The notes under the pieces are model-generated. The model ran no database searches. It worked only from the letters and a program-made list of their open reading frames with translations, and was not told the DNA's origin. From Bacteroidota bacterium (GTDB lineage Bacteria > Bacteroidota > Bacteroidia > Bacteroidales > VadinHA17): a DNA stretch of 64,000 nucleotides. Shown piece after piece: positions 9,862 through 63,729 of this stretch (position 1 is the first letter of the stretch; each line of letters begins with the position of its first letter). Where the stretch lies: contig JADFDS010000042.1 in the NCBI GenBank assembly GCA_018262715.1, positions 62,001-126,000 on the forward strand, in the 5' to 3' direction. A program made the translations under genes and the position numbers.

Positions 9862-9980
9862 ATCTCACATTGCAAATCGCACGTCTCAACTCCAAGTATT
9901 TTTTATTATCAGCCATCAACAGTCCTGCAAAGCTGTATTACAGGCCAAATTAATTCGCAACTCGCAATTCGCAACTCGCA
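9862..9980. repeat. Two 4x heptamer arrays
   Basis: ATCTCAC-ATTGCAA-ATCGCAC-GTCTCAA (9862-9889) and ATTCGCA-ACTCGCA-ATTCGCA-ACTCGCA (9953-9980). Confidence 0.8.
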
Positions 9981-9983
9981 AAT

Positions 9984-11495
9984 CTAAGCCTCCGGCTTCA
10001 TCTGCGGGAAGAACAGCACATCCTGTATCGAGGGCTGGTTGGTCATGAACATGGTGAGCCTGTCGATACCCATTCCCATTCCCGAGGTAGGAGGCATGGC
10101 ATATTCCAAAGCCCTGACGAAGTCCATGTCGATAAACATTGCCTCGTCATCACCCTTTTCCGAGAGACGAAGCTGATCCTGGAACCTCTCGAGCTGGTCG
10201 ATTGGGTCATTCAGCTCGGAGTAGGCGTTGGCCAGCTCCTTGCCGTTGACCATCAGCTCGAAACGCTCGGTCATACCATGCTTGCTGCGGTGTTTCTTTG
10301 TCAGCGGTGAGGTCTCCTGCGGGTAGTCAATGATGAATGTGGGCTGGATGAAGTGATGTTCGCACTTCTCTCCGAAAATCTGGTCAATCAGCTTGCCCTT
10401 TCCCATCGAGGGAGAGTGGCCTATCTCCATCCTGTCGCACTCCCGGCGCAGGTCATCCTCAGTCATGTCTGTTATGTCAATGCCGGCATATTCTTTTATG
10501 GCGTCGGTCATGGAGATACGCCTGTAGGGAGCCTTGTAGTCTATGACATGCTCACCGAGAGGCACCTTTGTGGTGCCGTGGAGGTCCATGGCCACCTTCT
10601 CAAGTATCTTTTCTGTGAACTCCATCATCCAGTTGTAGTCCTTATAGGCCACATAGATCTCCATCACTGTGAACTCGGGATTATGCGTGCGGTCCATCCC
10701 CTCGTTGCGGAAGTCCTTTGCAAACTCGTAGACTCCGTCATAACCGCCTACTATGAGACGCTTCAGGTAAAGCTCGTCCGCTATCCGGAGGTAGAGAGGT
10801 ATGTCGAGGGCATTATGATGAGTTATGAATGGTCTTGCTGCGGCACCGCCGGGAATAGGCTGAAGCACGGGTGTCTCCACCTCGAGGTAGCCATAAGAGT
10901 CAAAGAGCTCACGCATCGACCTGATTATCTGCGTGCGCTTGCGGAAAACCTCACGGACTTCGGGATTGATGATCAGGTCGACATAACGCTGGCGGTATCG
11001 CATCTCAGGATCAGTCACCGCATCGTACAGAACCCCGTCCTTTTCCTTTACTATGGGAAGAGGGCGGAGCGACTTGCTGAGGAGGGTCAGCTCCTTCACA
11101 TGAACGGTGATTTCGCCCATCTGGGTGCGGAATGCAAAACCCTTCACTCCGATGATGTCACCAATATCCAGAAGCTTTTTAAACAGGGTATTGTACAATG
11201 TTTTGTCCTCGCCCTGGCAGAGGTCATCACGACGTACATAGATTTGTATGCGGCCAGAAGAGTCCATCAGCTCGGCGAATGAGGCGTTGCCCATGATACG
11301 GCGGCTCATGATCCGGCCTGCCAGGCATACATCCGTGAATTTATTTTCAGTGTCACTGAATCCTGCCAGTATTTCTGCGGCCGAAATGTTAACCGGGTAC
11401 ATTGCAGCAGGATAAGGGTCTATGCCAAGTTTGCGTATTTCTTCAAGTGATTGCCTGCGAACCAGTTCCTGCTCGCTCAGTTGGGGTGTGCTCAT
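9984..11495 (-). CDS. lysS: Lysyl-tRNA synthetase (class II)
   Basis: YPAAMYPVNISAAEI, MRYRQRYVDLI, FRNEGMDRTHNPEFTVMEIYVAYKDYNWMME, GMGMGIDRLTMFMTNQPSIQDVLFFPQMKP. Confidence 0.98.
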   Translation of the reverse strand: MSTPQLSEQELVRRQSLEEIRKLGIDPYPAAMYPVNISAAEILAGFSDTENKFTDVCLAGRIMSRRIMGNASFAELMDSSGRIQIYVRRDDLCQGEDKTLYNTLFKKLLDIGDIIGVKGFAFRTQMGEITVHVKELTLLSKSLRPLPIVKEKDGVLYDAVTDPEMRYRQRYVDLIINPEVREVFRKRTQIIRSMRELFDSYGYLEVETPVLQPIPGGAAARPFITHHNALDIPLYLRIADELYLKRLIVGGYDGVYEFAKDFRNEGMDRTHNPEFTVMEIYVAYKDYNWMMEFTEKILEKVAMDLHGTTKVPLGEHVIDYKAPYRRISMTDAIKEYAGIDITDMTEDDLRRECDRMEIGHSPSMGKGKLIDQIFGEKCEHHFIQPTFIIDYPQETSPLTKKHRSKHGMTERFELMVNGKELANAYSELNDPIDQLERFQDQLRLSEKGDDEAMFIDMDFVRALEYAMPPTSGMGMGIDRLTMFMTNQPSIQDVLFFPQMKPEA

Positions 11496-15358: not shown

Positions 15359-16104
15359 GAATGGATCAGTTGTATGAGTTCCTGCAGGGTGCCCGACTTA
15401 AGATTTTCGATCCGTATGACCGACTGTATGATTTCGGGAGAGTCGCCCACCTGGCCGATCACTGTTTCGAGCTGACGGAGCTCCTCGTTCAGTTCCTGGT
15501 AGAGCTGCATTTTTTCTCTGAATAGCTCTGACTGGCATACCGGTGCGCCGGTCTTGCAGAGGTCTTTGATGACTTCGATCGGGTCTTCATCTTCGCCGGC
15601 CGGAGTCACAGGAGTGCCATGCTCTTCACTCAGGACAATTTCACTCTCAACTGTAATGCCTTTTTCTGTGCGCACAAGGCGAGGGATCATAAATAAAATC
15701 AGGACAACGGCCGCAACTCCGGCTGTTGTCAGAAGGAGTACCCTTCGGCTAAGCCCGGCACGCTTTTCCCCGGCCAGAAGGAGTACCCTTCGGCGAAGTC
15801 CGGGACGCTTTTCCCCGGGCAAAAGGGTATCAGCCCTTTCAGAGGGTATCTGCAGAGTCCTTTTCACCGGCCCGCGCACATCTGCGCCTGAATATCCGTC
15901 CTGATGCCCGTCCTGCAACGCAGCCTCAATGGTTTCCCATATAGCAGCTGACGGCTGGTGCAAGGGCAGATCCCGGAGCTGGCTGGAGATGGTATCTTCC
16001 ATATCAAGGGCAGCTTCTATCTCCCTCCAGAGGTTCGCGGAAGGTAAGCGGGAGGGCAGCTCCCTTATTCTTTCGGATAATATGTCATCAAACTCTTTGT
16101 TCAT
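15355..16104 (-). CDS. Putative anti-sigma-like single-pass membrane protein
   Basis: One TM segment (TAGVAAVVLILFMIPRL); 5' end overlaps the ECF sigma gene and 3' end overlaps the next gene. Confidence 0.55.
   Translation of the reverse strand: MNKEFDDILSERIRELPSRLPSANLWREIEAALDMEDTISSQLRDLPLHQPSAAIWETIEAALQDGHQDGYSGADVRGPVKRTLQIPSERADTLLPGEKRPGLRRRVLLLAGEKRAGLSRRVLLLTTAGVAAVVLILFMIPRLVRTEKGITVESEIVLSEEHGTPVTPAGEDEDPIEVIKDLCKTGAPVCQSELFREKMQLYQELNEELRQLETVIGQVGDSPEIIQSVIRIENLKSGTLQELIQLIHS
15731..15820. repeat. 45-bp tandem duplication inside the putative anti-sigma gene
   Basis: 15731-15775 and 15776-15820 nearly identical; encodes GEKRPGLRRRVLLLA / GEKRAGLSRRVLLLT. Confidence 0.9.
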
Positions 16105-18780: not shown

Positions 18781-18838
18781 GGTTATCGGTTATCGGTTAT
18801 GGTTATCGGTTATGGTTATCGGTTATGGTTATCGGTTA
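18781..18838. repeat. Tandem GGTTATCGGTTAT repeat array
   Basis: Units of 7/7/6/7/6/7/6/7/5 nt (GGTTATC/GGTTAT) read directly. Confidence 0.97.
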
Positions 18839-18843
18839 GGTGA

Positions 18844-19218
18844 ATGAAAAGTTATAAGGATCTTGACATATATAATGAGGCTTACAGGTTGGCGCTGGCT
18901 GTTCATGTTATGACACAGAAACTGGCTAAAGCAGAGCATTATGAGCTTGGAAGCCAGGTGCGAAGAGCTGCACAGAGTGTGAGATCCAATATAGTGGAAG
19001 GGTATGGCAGGAGAGAGTATAAAAATGAGTTCATAAGATACCTGATTTTTGCCAGGGCCTCATTGCTTGAAACCGGGTCTCATCTTGAGATGAGCAGAAG
19101 TTTGTACGAAAATATTGAAATTGCCGGATTGATCGAAGATTATAATCTGCTGGGTAAAAAGCTCGCTGCATTCATTCACTATGTGGAATCCTCCTGGATG
19201 ACCCCCCATGATAAATAA
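18844..19218 (+). CDS. Four-helix-bundle protein (S23 / TIGR02436-like)
   Basis: MKSYKDLDIYNEAYRLALAVHVMTQKL...ELGSQVRRAAQSVRSNIVEGYGRREYKNEFIRYLIFARASLLETGSHLEMSRSL is the typical family sequence. Confidence 0.93.
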   Translation: MKSYKDLDIYNEAYRLALAVHVMTQKLAKAEHYELGSQVRRAAQSVRSNIVEGYGRREYKNEFIRYLIFARASLLETGSHLEMSRSLYENIEIAGLIEDYNLLGKKLAAFIHYVESSWMTPHDK

Positions 19219-19251
19219 CAGACAATAACCGATAACGGAAAACCGACAACA
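19219..19251. repeat. Degenerate heptamer array, inverted relative to 18781-18838
   Basis: ATAACAGACA-ATAACCG-ATAACGG-AAAACCG; ATAACCGATAAC (19225-19236) is the exact reverse complement of GTTATCGGTTAT upstream. Confidence 0.8.
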
Positions 19252-19960: not shown

Positions 19961-21667
19961 ATGGAAAAAAGGTGGCTCTTGAAAGAGAGGGGCGACACAC
20001 GTGTCGTCACGACCCTGGCGACAGAGATGGCGGTGCCTGCCGCTGTCGCCAGCCTGATGGCCCAGCGGGGCATAACGACAAAAAGCCAGGCTGAGGAGTT
20101 CTTCAACCCCACACTGGGATCCCTGCATGACCCCTTCCTGATGAAGGACATGAACAGGGCGGTTGACAGGATCAGCACGGCAATATCAAGGAACGAAAAG
20201 ATACTTGTTTACGGCGACTATGATGTTGACGGCACCACCTCGGTGGCAATGCTCTATTCCTTCCTGAGGGAGAGACATTCTAGCCTTGATTACTACATCC
20301 CTGACCGTTACCATGAGGGGTACGGGCTTTCCCTCAAGGGTATTGACTATGCCGCTGAGGGTAACAGCAGGCTGATAATTGCGCTCGACTGCGGAATTAA
20401 GGCTGTTGACAAGGTGAAATACGCACGGTCAAAGGGTATAGATATCATTATTTGTGACCATCACCTCCCGGGCGACGGGATCCCTGATGCCACTGCTGTA
20501 CTTGACCCCAAGCAGCCGGGGTGCGGTTATCCCTACAAGGAGCTGTCAGGGTGCGGTGTGGGATTCAAACTGATGCAGGCCATATGCAAGGTGCAGAACA
20601 TCCCGTTTGAGAGGATCATTCCTTACCTGGATATGGTGGCGGTAAGTATCGGGTCAGACATTGTGCCTATGACCGGCGAAAACAGGGTGCTGGCTTACTA
20701 TGGGCTGAGGCAGCTCAACGAATCGCCCCGCCTGGGATTTCAGAAAATAATTGAAAAGGCCAAGATCCGCAAACCGCTTGCCATTGAGGATGTGGTGTTT
20801 CGCATCGGGCCCCGCATAAACGCCGCCGGACGGATGGAGTCAGGCAGCAGGGCGGTCGATCTGCTGGTATCGCAGAATCCGCAGGAGGCACTGACAATCT
20901 GCGATGCAATTGACATCAATAACGACGACCGCAGGAAAAAAGACAGTGAGATCACATCCGAAGCGCGCCGTATGGTGAGCGAGGACAGCAGGTCAGGCAA
21001 TACCCGCACTACGGTGCTGTTTCACCAGGGATGGCACAAGGGGGTGATCGGTATTGTGGCATCACGCCTTATTGAGACATATTACAGGCCTACGGTGATA
21101 CTGACGGAGTCGAAGGATGGTTTTGCCACCGGCTCTGCACGCAGTGTGCCGGGGTATGACCTTTACCAGGCCATCGAGTCCTGCTCTGATCTGCTCGAGA
21201 GTTTTGGAGGGCATATGTTTGCGGCCGGACTGACCCTGAAGCAGGAGAACCTGCAGCAGTTTCGCGAGAGGTTTGAGAAATTTGTCAGCGAGACGATAAG
21301 GGATGAGCACCTGGTGCCGTCAGTCAATGTCGATGAGGAGATTCCTCTTGAAGAGGTCACCATGGAACTTTACCGGAATCTTGAGAAGTTTCAGCCGTTC
21401 GGTCCTGAGAACACAGCGCCGGTGTTTGTCTCGAGGAGGGTCAAGACCCTCTCATGCCAGCCTGTGGGCACAAACGGGATGCATCTCAAGCTCACCTTTG
21501 CAAGGCAGAATGGTGAGCCTGTGGGTGCCATTGCGTTTGGCCAGGCTGACATGATCGAGACCTTCCGTGAGTCAGGCGGTGTTGTTGACATAGCCTACTC
21601 AGTGGAGCTGAATGAGTTTCGCGGGAAGACGTCAGTACAGCTCAATATAAAGGATATTAAAGGGTAG
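19961..21667 (+). CDS. recJ: Single-stranded-DNA-specific exonuclease RecJ
   Basis: VYGDYDVDGTTSVAMLY, DIIICDHHLPGD, RIGPRINAAGRMESG, SFGGHMFAAGLTL. Confidence 0.97.
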   Translation: MEKRWLLKERGDTRVVTTLATEMAVPAAVASLMAQRGITTKSQAEEFFNPTLGSLHDPFLMKDMNRAVDRISTAISRNEKILVYGDYDVDGTTSVAMLYSFLRERHSSLDYYIPDRYHEGYGLSLKGIDYAAEGNSRLIIALDCGIKAVDKVKYARSKGIDIIICDHHLPGDGIPDATAVLDPKQPGCGYPYKELSGCGVGFKLMQAICKVQNIPFERIIPYLDMVAVSIGSDIVPMTGENRVLAYYGLRQLNESPRLGFQKIIEKAKIRKPLAIEDVVFRIGPRINAAGRMESGSRAVDLLVSQNPQEALTICDAIDINNDDRRKKDSEITSEARRMVSEDSRSGNTRTTVLFHQGWHKGVIGIVASRLIETYYRPTVILTESKDGFATGSARSVPGYDLYQAIESCSDLLESFGGHMFAAGLTLKQENLQQFRERFEKFVSETIRDEHLVPSVNVDEEIPLEEVTMELYRNLEKFQPFGPENTAPVFVSRRVKTLSCQPVGTNGMHLKLTFARQNGEPVGAIAFGQADMIETFRESGGVVDIAYSVELNEFRGKTSVQLNIKDIKG

Positions 21668-21757
21668 AGGCGATAGGCATTAGGCAATAGTCATAAAATC
21701 AGCATGTTATTGCCAACGCTGTCACACTACTGCCTTCTGCCTACTGCCTGCTGCCTT
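21668..21757. repeat. Paired inverted 4x heptamer arrays
   Basis: AGGCGAT-AGGCATT-AGGCAAT-AGTCATA (21668-21695) and CTGCCTT-CTGCCTA-CTGCCTG-CTGCCTT (21730-21757). Confidence 0.85.
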
Positions 21758-21826
21758 TTTTTATCATCTTTCCCTTGACATTCTCGCTTTCCTGTCCTAA
21801 ATTTGATGGAGTAATTATGTCTCACC

Positions 21827-32761: not shown

Positions 32762-32763
32762 CA

Positions 32764-32834
32764 TGTGAGATTTGAGATTTGAGATTTGCGAGTTTTGGTT
32801 TATTTGTCGCACATCGCAAATCGGAATTCGCAAA
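32764..32834. repeat. Paired inverted 4x heptamer arrays
   Basis: TGTGAGA-TTTGAGA-TTTGAGA-TTTGCGA (32764-32791) and TCGCACA-TCGCAAA-TCGGAAT-TCGCAAA (32807-32834), 15-nt spacer. Confidence 0.9.
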
Positions 32835-32919
32835 TCTGGGCACAATTCCCCCTGGTTGTTGATAAATCGGAAAGATTCGCCTTGCCTAATTCTTTATATT
32901 TGCCCCAAAATTTGGGATA

Positions 32920-59930: not shown

Positions 59931-59935
59931 CAGGA

Positions 59936-60003
59936 TTTGAGATTTGCGAATTGCGATTTGAGATTGTTGCTTAACTCGAAAATCGGGAATCGAAAGTCGA
60001 AAA
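59936..60003. repeat. Paired inverted 4x heptamer arrays
   Basis: TTTGAGA-TTTGCGA-ATTGCGA-TTTGAGA (59936-59963) and TCGAAAA-TCGGGAA-TCGAAAG-TCGAAAA (59976-60003), 12-nt spacer. Confidence 0.9.
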
Positions 60004-63647: not shown

Positions 63648-63729
63648 GTCCAAAAGTCCAAAAGTCTAAAGTCCAAAGGTCAGTTAAATGACCTTCAGAC
63701 CTTCAGACCTTCAGACCTTCAGACCTTTT
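63648..63729. repeat. Paired inverted octamer arrays in the 16S-23S spacer
   Basis: GTCCAAAA-GTCCAAAA-GTCTAAA-GTCCAAAG (63648-63678) and GACCTTCA x4 (63690-63721) + GACCTTTT. Confidence 0.92.

Follow-up and report, generated by a model that had tools for sequence, protein, structure and literature searches.

What is the inverted heptamer structure that follows directly upon recJ, and what does it belong to? In the 64-kb stretch of DNA analysed here (the window, part of genome G000) the recJ gene (19961–21667, plus strand; Pfam DHH, DHHA1 and RecJ_OB) is followed on the next base after its stop codon (0 nt) by a left array of four heptamers, AGGCGAT AGGCATT AGGCAAT AGTCATA (21668–21695, plus strand), of which the fourth is degenerate. 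A spacer of 34 nt (21696–21729) separates it from a right, inverted array of four, CTGCCTT CTGCCTA CTGCCTG CTGCCTT (21730–21757, minus strand). The original prediction had described this 4+4 arrangement at 21668–21757, and it is present base for base; both arms were recovered by TRF, and our inverted-array detector agrees. Read on the minus strand the right arm is AGGCAGN, which matches the AGGCAxx of the left one, as had also been stated. There is no ORF between the arms. The element lies between recJ and a 268-aa ORF and not inside a 23S rRNA gene, the rRNA genes of the window being elsewhere. At gathering score Rfam offered no family for it, the window's matches being to rRNA and tRNA only.

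The RNA fold of 21660–21770, in which the spacer forms the loop, has an energy of −41.7 kcal/mol (z −5.4), and no shuffle was equally good. The stem is followed by a terminator-like run of seven T residues (21756–21762, plus strand), seen in the sequence, the fold and the congener comparison. As in intrinsic terminators, then, 21668–21762 contains a GC-containing stem and a T-run; a consensus terminator scan, whose rule admits loops of 3–8 only, gave the hairpin no score. Judged from its sequence, the hairpin with its T-run probably acts now as a transcription terminator of recJ or as a protector of its 3' end. By itself this element is modest; the class to which it leads is the point of interest.

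In the window the detector found four inverted pairs of period 7 (18781/19225, 21668/21727, 32763/32807 and 59934/59973) and none of period 5, 6, 8, 9, 10 or 11, while 30 Markov-1 shuffles of the window contained no inverted array pair. The first pair encloses a gene which the original prediction overlooked and which is the key to the identity of the recJ element. This is an S23 four-helix-bundle gene (18844–19218, plus strand; 124 aa; PF05635 23S_rRNA_IVP, E 8e-24; TIGR02436). Its left array of GGTTATC units, some of them shortened (18781–18838, plus strand; TRF and detector), begins 1 nt past the stop codon of lipA, and its right, inverted array of the same family (19225–19250, minus strand; detector) ends a few nt before lipB. 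The remaining two pairs belong to ORF-less elements. One of these, built of GATTTGA/GATTTGC (32763–32836; detector and congener comparison), lies between plsC and parE and begins a few nt after plsC; it had been cited, at 32764, as sharing the architecture of the recJ element with an unrelated unit, and it is likewise real, with a unit that is indeed unrelated. The other, of GATTTGA and degenerate units (59934–60002; detector), starts 3 nt after a tRNA gene. G000 has only one other PF05635 match (L002); inverted arrays flank it too, and their unit, GATTTGC, is that of these two ORF-less elements.

No AGGC-type S23 occurs in G000, and the recJ-site copy is therefore an orphan here. Its unit, AGGCAnT, is the arm of S23-bearing elements in two congeners (L007 and L009, AGGCAGT/AGGCAAT), so that it shares its arms with S23-bearing elements. 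The feature at 21668 is thus real and, as an orphan lacking an ORF, belongs to the AGGC family of heptamer elements linked to S23. A strict inverted-pair search of 464 kb of G000 returned only the two best pairs of the window, and many arrays in a 400-kb sample were one-sided or degenerate. A one-sided array of AATTCGC/AACTCGC is present within the window (9952–9984, minus strand; TRF), and its orthologous site carries an AGGC array in another congener (L282).

S23 loci were gathered from relatives and from GTDB contigs, giving 168 with both flanks from Bacteroidota and neighbours; 366 stretches from those same loci served as controls. Of the 168, 67% have a period-7 array upstream, 63% have one downstream and 55% have both; the corresponding figures for the control stretches are 4%, 6% and 0.8%. 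Except for multiples of 7 no other period is prominent (at most 5% on both sides), periods 8 and 9 being slightly raised at 5% and 3%, respectively. About one quarter of the S23 genes have no array on either side. S23 genes on cyanobacterial and Azospirillum lipoferum plasmids display a like architecture, occasionally with 8- or 9-mers; at two plasmid loci (Gemmatirosa L387 and Pseudanabaena L388) the arrays are direct rather than inverted. We also noted that three S23 elements (L263, L266 and L388) lie within CRISPR-cas operons of cyanobacterial plasmids (cas10-cmr3, cas6-cas4).

The two arms of a locus match one another, the upstream unit agreeing with the reverse complement of the downstream unit at 5.17 of 7 positions against 3.72 when permuted. 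The units themselves are very diverse (GGTTGTC, AGTCGGC, AGGCAGT, GAAGACC, GCACAGG, TTAATGG, AATTAGG and AGCCAGT among them), and one unit is common to the S23 proteins of a clade: protein identity and unit similarity are correlated with a Mantel r of 0.42, the highest of 500 permutations being 0.15. Architecture, arm matching and a clade-specific unit are therefore directly seen. The idea that sequence is of no account is not supported, since the units fall into discrete families which a plain sequence pattern finds and each of which tracks an S23 clade.

The position of the elements is equally regular. Where a neighbouring gene exists, it runs in the direction of the S23 element in 104 of 107 cases upstream and in 79 of 93 downstream, and a post-stop position is observed directly, the array starting at a median of 4 nt past the upstream stop codon (bulk −2 to +9). 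In approximately 80% the coding strand has a G-rich left and a C-rich right arm; the orientation of the arms is therefore fixed relative to transcription. Purifying selection acts on S23 (median dN/dS 0.08), no S23 match was found in phage records, and the only solved relative found is XCC0516 (2gsc). To our knowledge the S23/IVP family has a solved structure and no function, nor do we know of S23 as a transposase.

Based upon these observations we regard the recJ feature, with good probability, as a copy without ORF, either non-autonomous or derived by deletion, of a mobile element composed of a heptamer array, an S23 gene and an inverted array. Deletion derivatives are directly visible at the lipA–lipB site, where one orthologous position occurs in three states: S23-bearing (G000, G002, G005 and G016), internally deleted for S23 with the arms retained (G017 and G001), and empty. 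In view of these internal-deletion derivatives, and of its spacer of just 34 nt, we call the recJ-site copy ORF-less. In eight genomes (G007, G020, G013, G019, G012, G006, G009 and G021; L150–L159) lipA and lipB are apparently fused into one ORF.

Comparison of alleles, suggested in the original prediction, does reveal turnover of units between congeners at recJ, at plsC–parE and at other sites. The plsC–parE site has GATTTGA, AGGCA and AGTCGGC versions together with empty sites of about 112 nt, and the recJ 3' site carries AGGCAnT, AGTCTTC/AGTCGGC, AGCAAGG/GGGGCAA or GAGGGAT arrays across the genus. Orthologous sites without arrays were also looked for and are present: G021 has no array at recJ and G014 only a degenerate remnant, and lipA–lipB and plsC–parE are each without an array in seven species. 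On a tree built from RecJ, LipB and PlsC the 17 species require at least 9 changes of the unit label at recJ (shuffled labels, 9.1), and the units do not cluster on the species tree beyond one clade. Most alleles nevertheless keep a long hairpin that leads into a T-run (z about −2.6 or lower in 12 of 15), and a resident hairpin that served recJ as terminator or 3' protector would explain its being kept in nearly every congener. That structure and not sequence is conserved, as had been claimed, consequently stands for the recJ site, where hairpin and T-run have mostly outlasted at least nine changes of unit; as a general statement it is not supported, since the unit tracks the S23 clade.

The stem and T-run which most congeners have at the orthologous recJ position, irrespective of the unit, together with variable copy numbers, might also be read as a fast-evolving intrinsic terminator whose stem grew in place by heptamer slippage and arm-to-arm template switching, the link to S23 being incidental. 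We think this improbable: the same small set of units is met with at many unrelated loci and also at S23 loci of the genus, and growth in place leaves unexplained why a single period is preferred across phyla, why the AGGC family keeps to 4+4 and why there are empty sites. Plain slippage was rejected because unit families are shared between many loci and with the S23 arms.

Lineage-specific amplification of the AGGC family is evident, an exact pattern (AGGCRNTAGGCRNTAGGCANTAG) giving between 0 and 97 matches per congener and its reversed control none. Many of the copies in G015 consist of four units, a loop and four units, and the S23-bearing AGGC elements L007 and L009 likewise possess 4+4 arms. 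Some copies are situated among AGTC-type arms, that is, they are nested. Arrays of a unit are more numerous where the matching S23 clade is present (p 0.025 and 0.021 for two families, in a test uncorrected for phylogeny or genome incompleteness), and three genomes (G001, G006 and G011) combine a high copy number with the lack of an intact matching S23. In G020, which has 29 AGTCGGC pattern matches, the AGTCGGC-type S23 (L023) contains two internal stop codons, which suggests that the gene was lost after its arrays had spread. Inspection by eye of the sequences flanking complete G015 elements revealed no target-site duplication.

One might instead expect arrays of this kind to be operators, that is, binding sites at which a global regulator (S23 or another protein) controls a 3'-end regulon, and not mobile arms at all. 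Similar arrays have been so read in Geobacter metallireducens (PMC2700814) and, for TAACTGA, in Beggiatoa (PMC4679880), and both the purifying selection on S23 and the way in which the unit follows the protein would suit a regulator. Positions, counts (0–97) and units shift rapidly between congeners, however, the matching S23 can be absent from high-copy genomes, and nested copies exist; a regulon of this sort therefore seems to us unlikely, if less so than growth in place.

For the mobile element which we prefer, we infer that the heptamer arms of an element are recognised by its own S23 protein, which thereby spreads copies with and without the S23 gene. The protein would bind these arms probably as RNA or as single strands, because their strand asymmetry is fixed relative to the gene, and both kinds of copy would move via a cut-and-join step. 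Spots just behind stop codons may be used again by new elements, which may also insert into the loops of old ones; given such reuse and loop insertion, the unit at a site would change and the hairpin would stay. Like MITEs, these are ORF-less inverted-repeat elements related to ORF-bearing parents; unlike MITEs, they have tandem heptamers as terminal repeats and no transposase gene, and no target-site duplication was seen.

Two better known routes of movement were considered. Since the elements occupy transcribed positions, co-directional with the upstream gene, and an AGGC-type S23 weakly matches the model of its relative Avd, a protein of diversity-generating retroelements (E 1.9e-4), S23 might carry transcribed hairpin RNA to a resident reverse transcriptase of the host. 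We give this retrotransposition little credence, as PF00078 has no match in many of the S23-carrying relatives, including the near-complete G026, G028 and G029 and the high-copy G015. G000 has a single RVT_1 match, with a stop inside it. A diversity-generating retroelement was rejected, the reverse transcriptase partner being interrupted in G000 and lacking in many relatives.

The hairpin form, the ORF-less copies and the occurrence of Y1 genes in 38 of 60 relatives bring to mind REP/RAYT-like single-stranded DNA elements, which a transposase of Y1 (IS200/IS605) type would move in trans. Of all the explanations this is the one to which we attach the least probability: as a control family 20 Y1-transposase loci showed no matched inverted heptamers in their flanks, and G000, G013, G015, G020 and G026 have arrays or S23 yet no Y1 match. 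Membership of the REP/RAYT group was rejected, no association with Y1 (RAYT) transposase genes having been found. With the reverse transcriptase missing in many S23-carrying relatives and Y1 in several genomes, G000 included, neither enzyme is a general requirement.

The intervening sequence (IVS) in the 23S rRNA gene of Coxiella burnetii contains an S23p ORF and has 28-bp inverted termini that form a stem, with three GACAGAT and one GACAGAA heptamers before the ORF (PMC4990558). As here, an S23 ORF is enclosed by inverted termini, and 28 bp is four times seven, which compares with our 4+4 elements. By analogy the Coxiella IVS can be taken as an independent case of the S23-element anatomy, inside rRNA. 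Unlike the IVSs, which are inside 23S rRNA genes, the elements described here stand by themselves, either between protein genes or behind tRNA genes, and the recJ-site copy, unlike the Coxiella IVS, is without an ORF. In the account of the latter we found no mention of ORF-less dispersed copies or of a clade-specific unit (PMC4990558).

Other heptamers have been reported from the repeat side. The GGGAATC and GGGGA(T/C)T repeats of Xanthomonas and Nostoc mostly comprise four units, form 70–75 nearby inverted pairs and lie between aligned ORFs at most 50 bp from stop codons; they were interpreted as G-quadruplex repeats with generally no mobile-element association, and S23 went unmentioned (Rehm 2015, PMC4692102). 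The Xanthomonas GGGAATC repeats resemble ours in being heptamers in four units and inverted pairs near stop codons. Because XCC is a Xanthomonas campestris locus name, we predict that the XCC0516 gene (2gsc) is flanked by GGGAATC arms. TAACTGA repeats are known from Beggiatoaceae, cyanobacteria and Bacteroidetes as direct repeats upstream of genes, and it was suggested that an unknown repeat-binding protein may be the mobile element (MacGregor 2015, PMC4679880). The reverse complement of TAACTGA, TCAGTTA, is a GTT-family unit which we found around S23 genes; the published description differs from S23 elements in that S23 is absent and arms are paired in one case only (PMC4679880). Geobacter metallireducens has dozens of copies of four tandem octamers or five heptamers, in opposite-strand pairs of variable spacing (PMC2700814); these are paired and inverted as are S23 elements, and were called global-regulator sites with no link to S23. 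By analogy the Xanthomonas, TAACTGA and Geobacter repeats look like the S23-element class seen from the repeat side.

The heptamer arrays themselves are thus already known. In the open-access literature, subscription papers being outside the scope of the search, we found no report that draws a general link between S23 genes and inverted heptamer arrays, and the S23-bearing, heptamer-armed element appears to be widespread and little described. On balance we incline somewhat towards a broader reading in which a class of mobile elements spanning several phyla, with no known transposase, would have S23 as its only protein. Each S23 lineage would recognise its own arms of 7 nt (rarely 8 or 9), target transcribed post-stop or rRNA positions and spawn ORF-less hairpins. 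Such a class would account for the heptamer repeats of Bacteroidota, cyanobacteria, Xanthomonas, Beggiatoaceae and Geobacter, and 23S IVSs would be one special insertion site. If true, this would connect a number of unexplained repeat families of bacteria with a single protein. Tandem heptamers have so far been reported separately in several phyla, where they passed for G-quadruplexes, regulator sites or curiosities; linking them to S23 would give the protein a candidate ligand in its own arms and the repeats a candidate origin, and would make the mobility of IVSs testable. At recJ a hairpin persists while its sequence family is swapped repeatedly, a pattern that sequence-based repeat catalogues miss.

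Three further repeats of the window deserve mention. An octamer-based inverted element lies in the 16S–23S rRNA spacer (63648–63727; TRF), its left arm being of the AAAAGTCC type and its right arm 4.8 copies of GACCTTCA; this is near where IVS-like elements would be expected. The segment 7440–7760 is composite: other hairpins in it are surrounded by remnants of AGGC- and AGTC-type units, which suggests layered insertions. Finally, 15730–15826 contains 2.2 copies of a 45-nt tandem repeat which, its period being a multiple of 3, is putatively coding.
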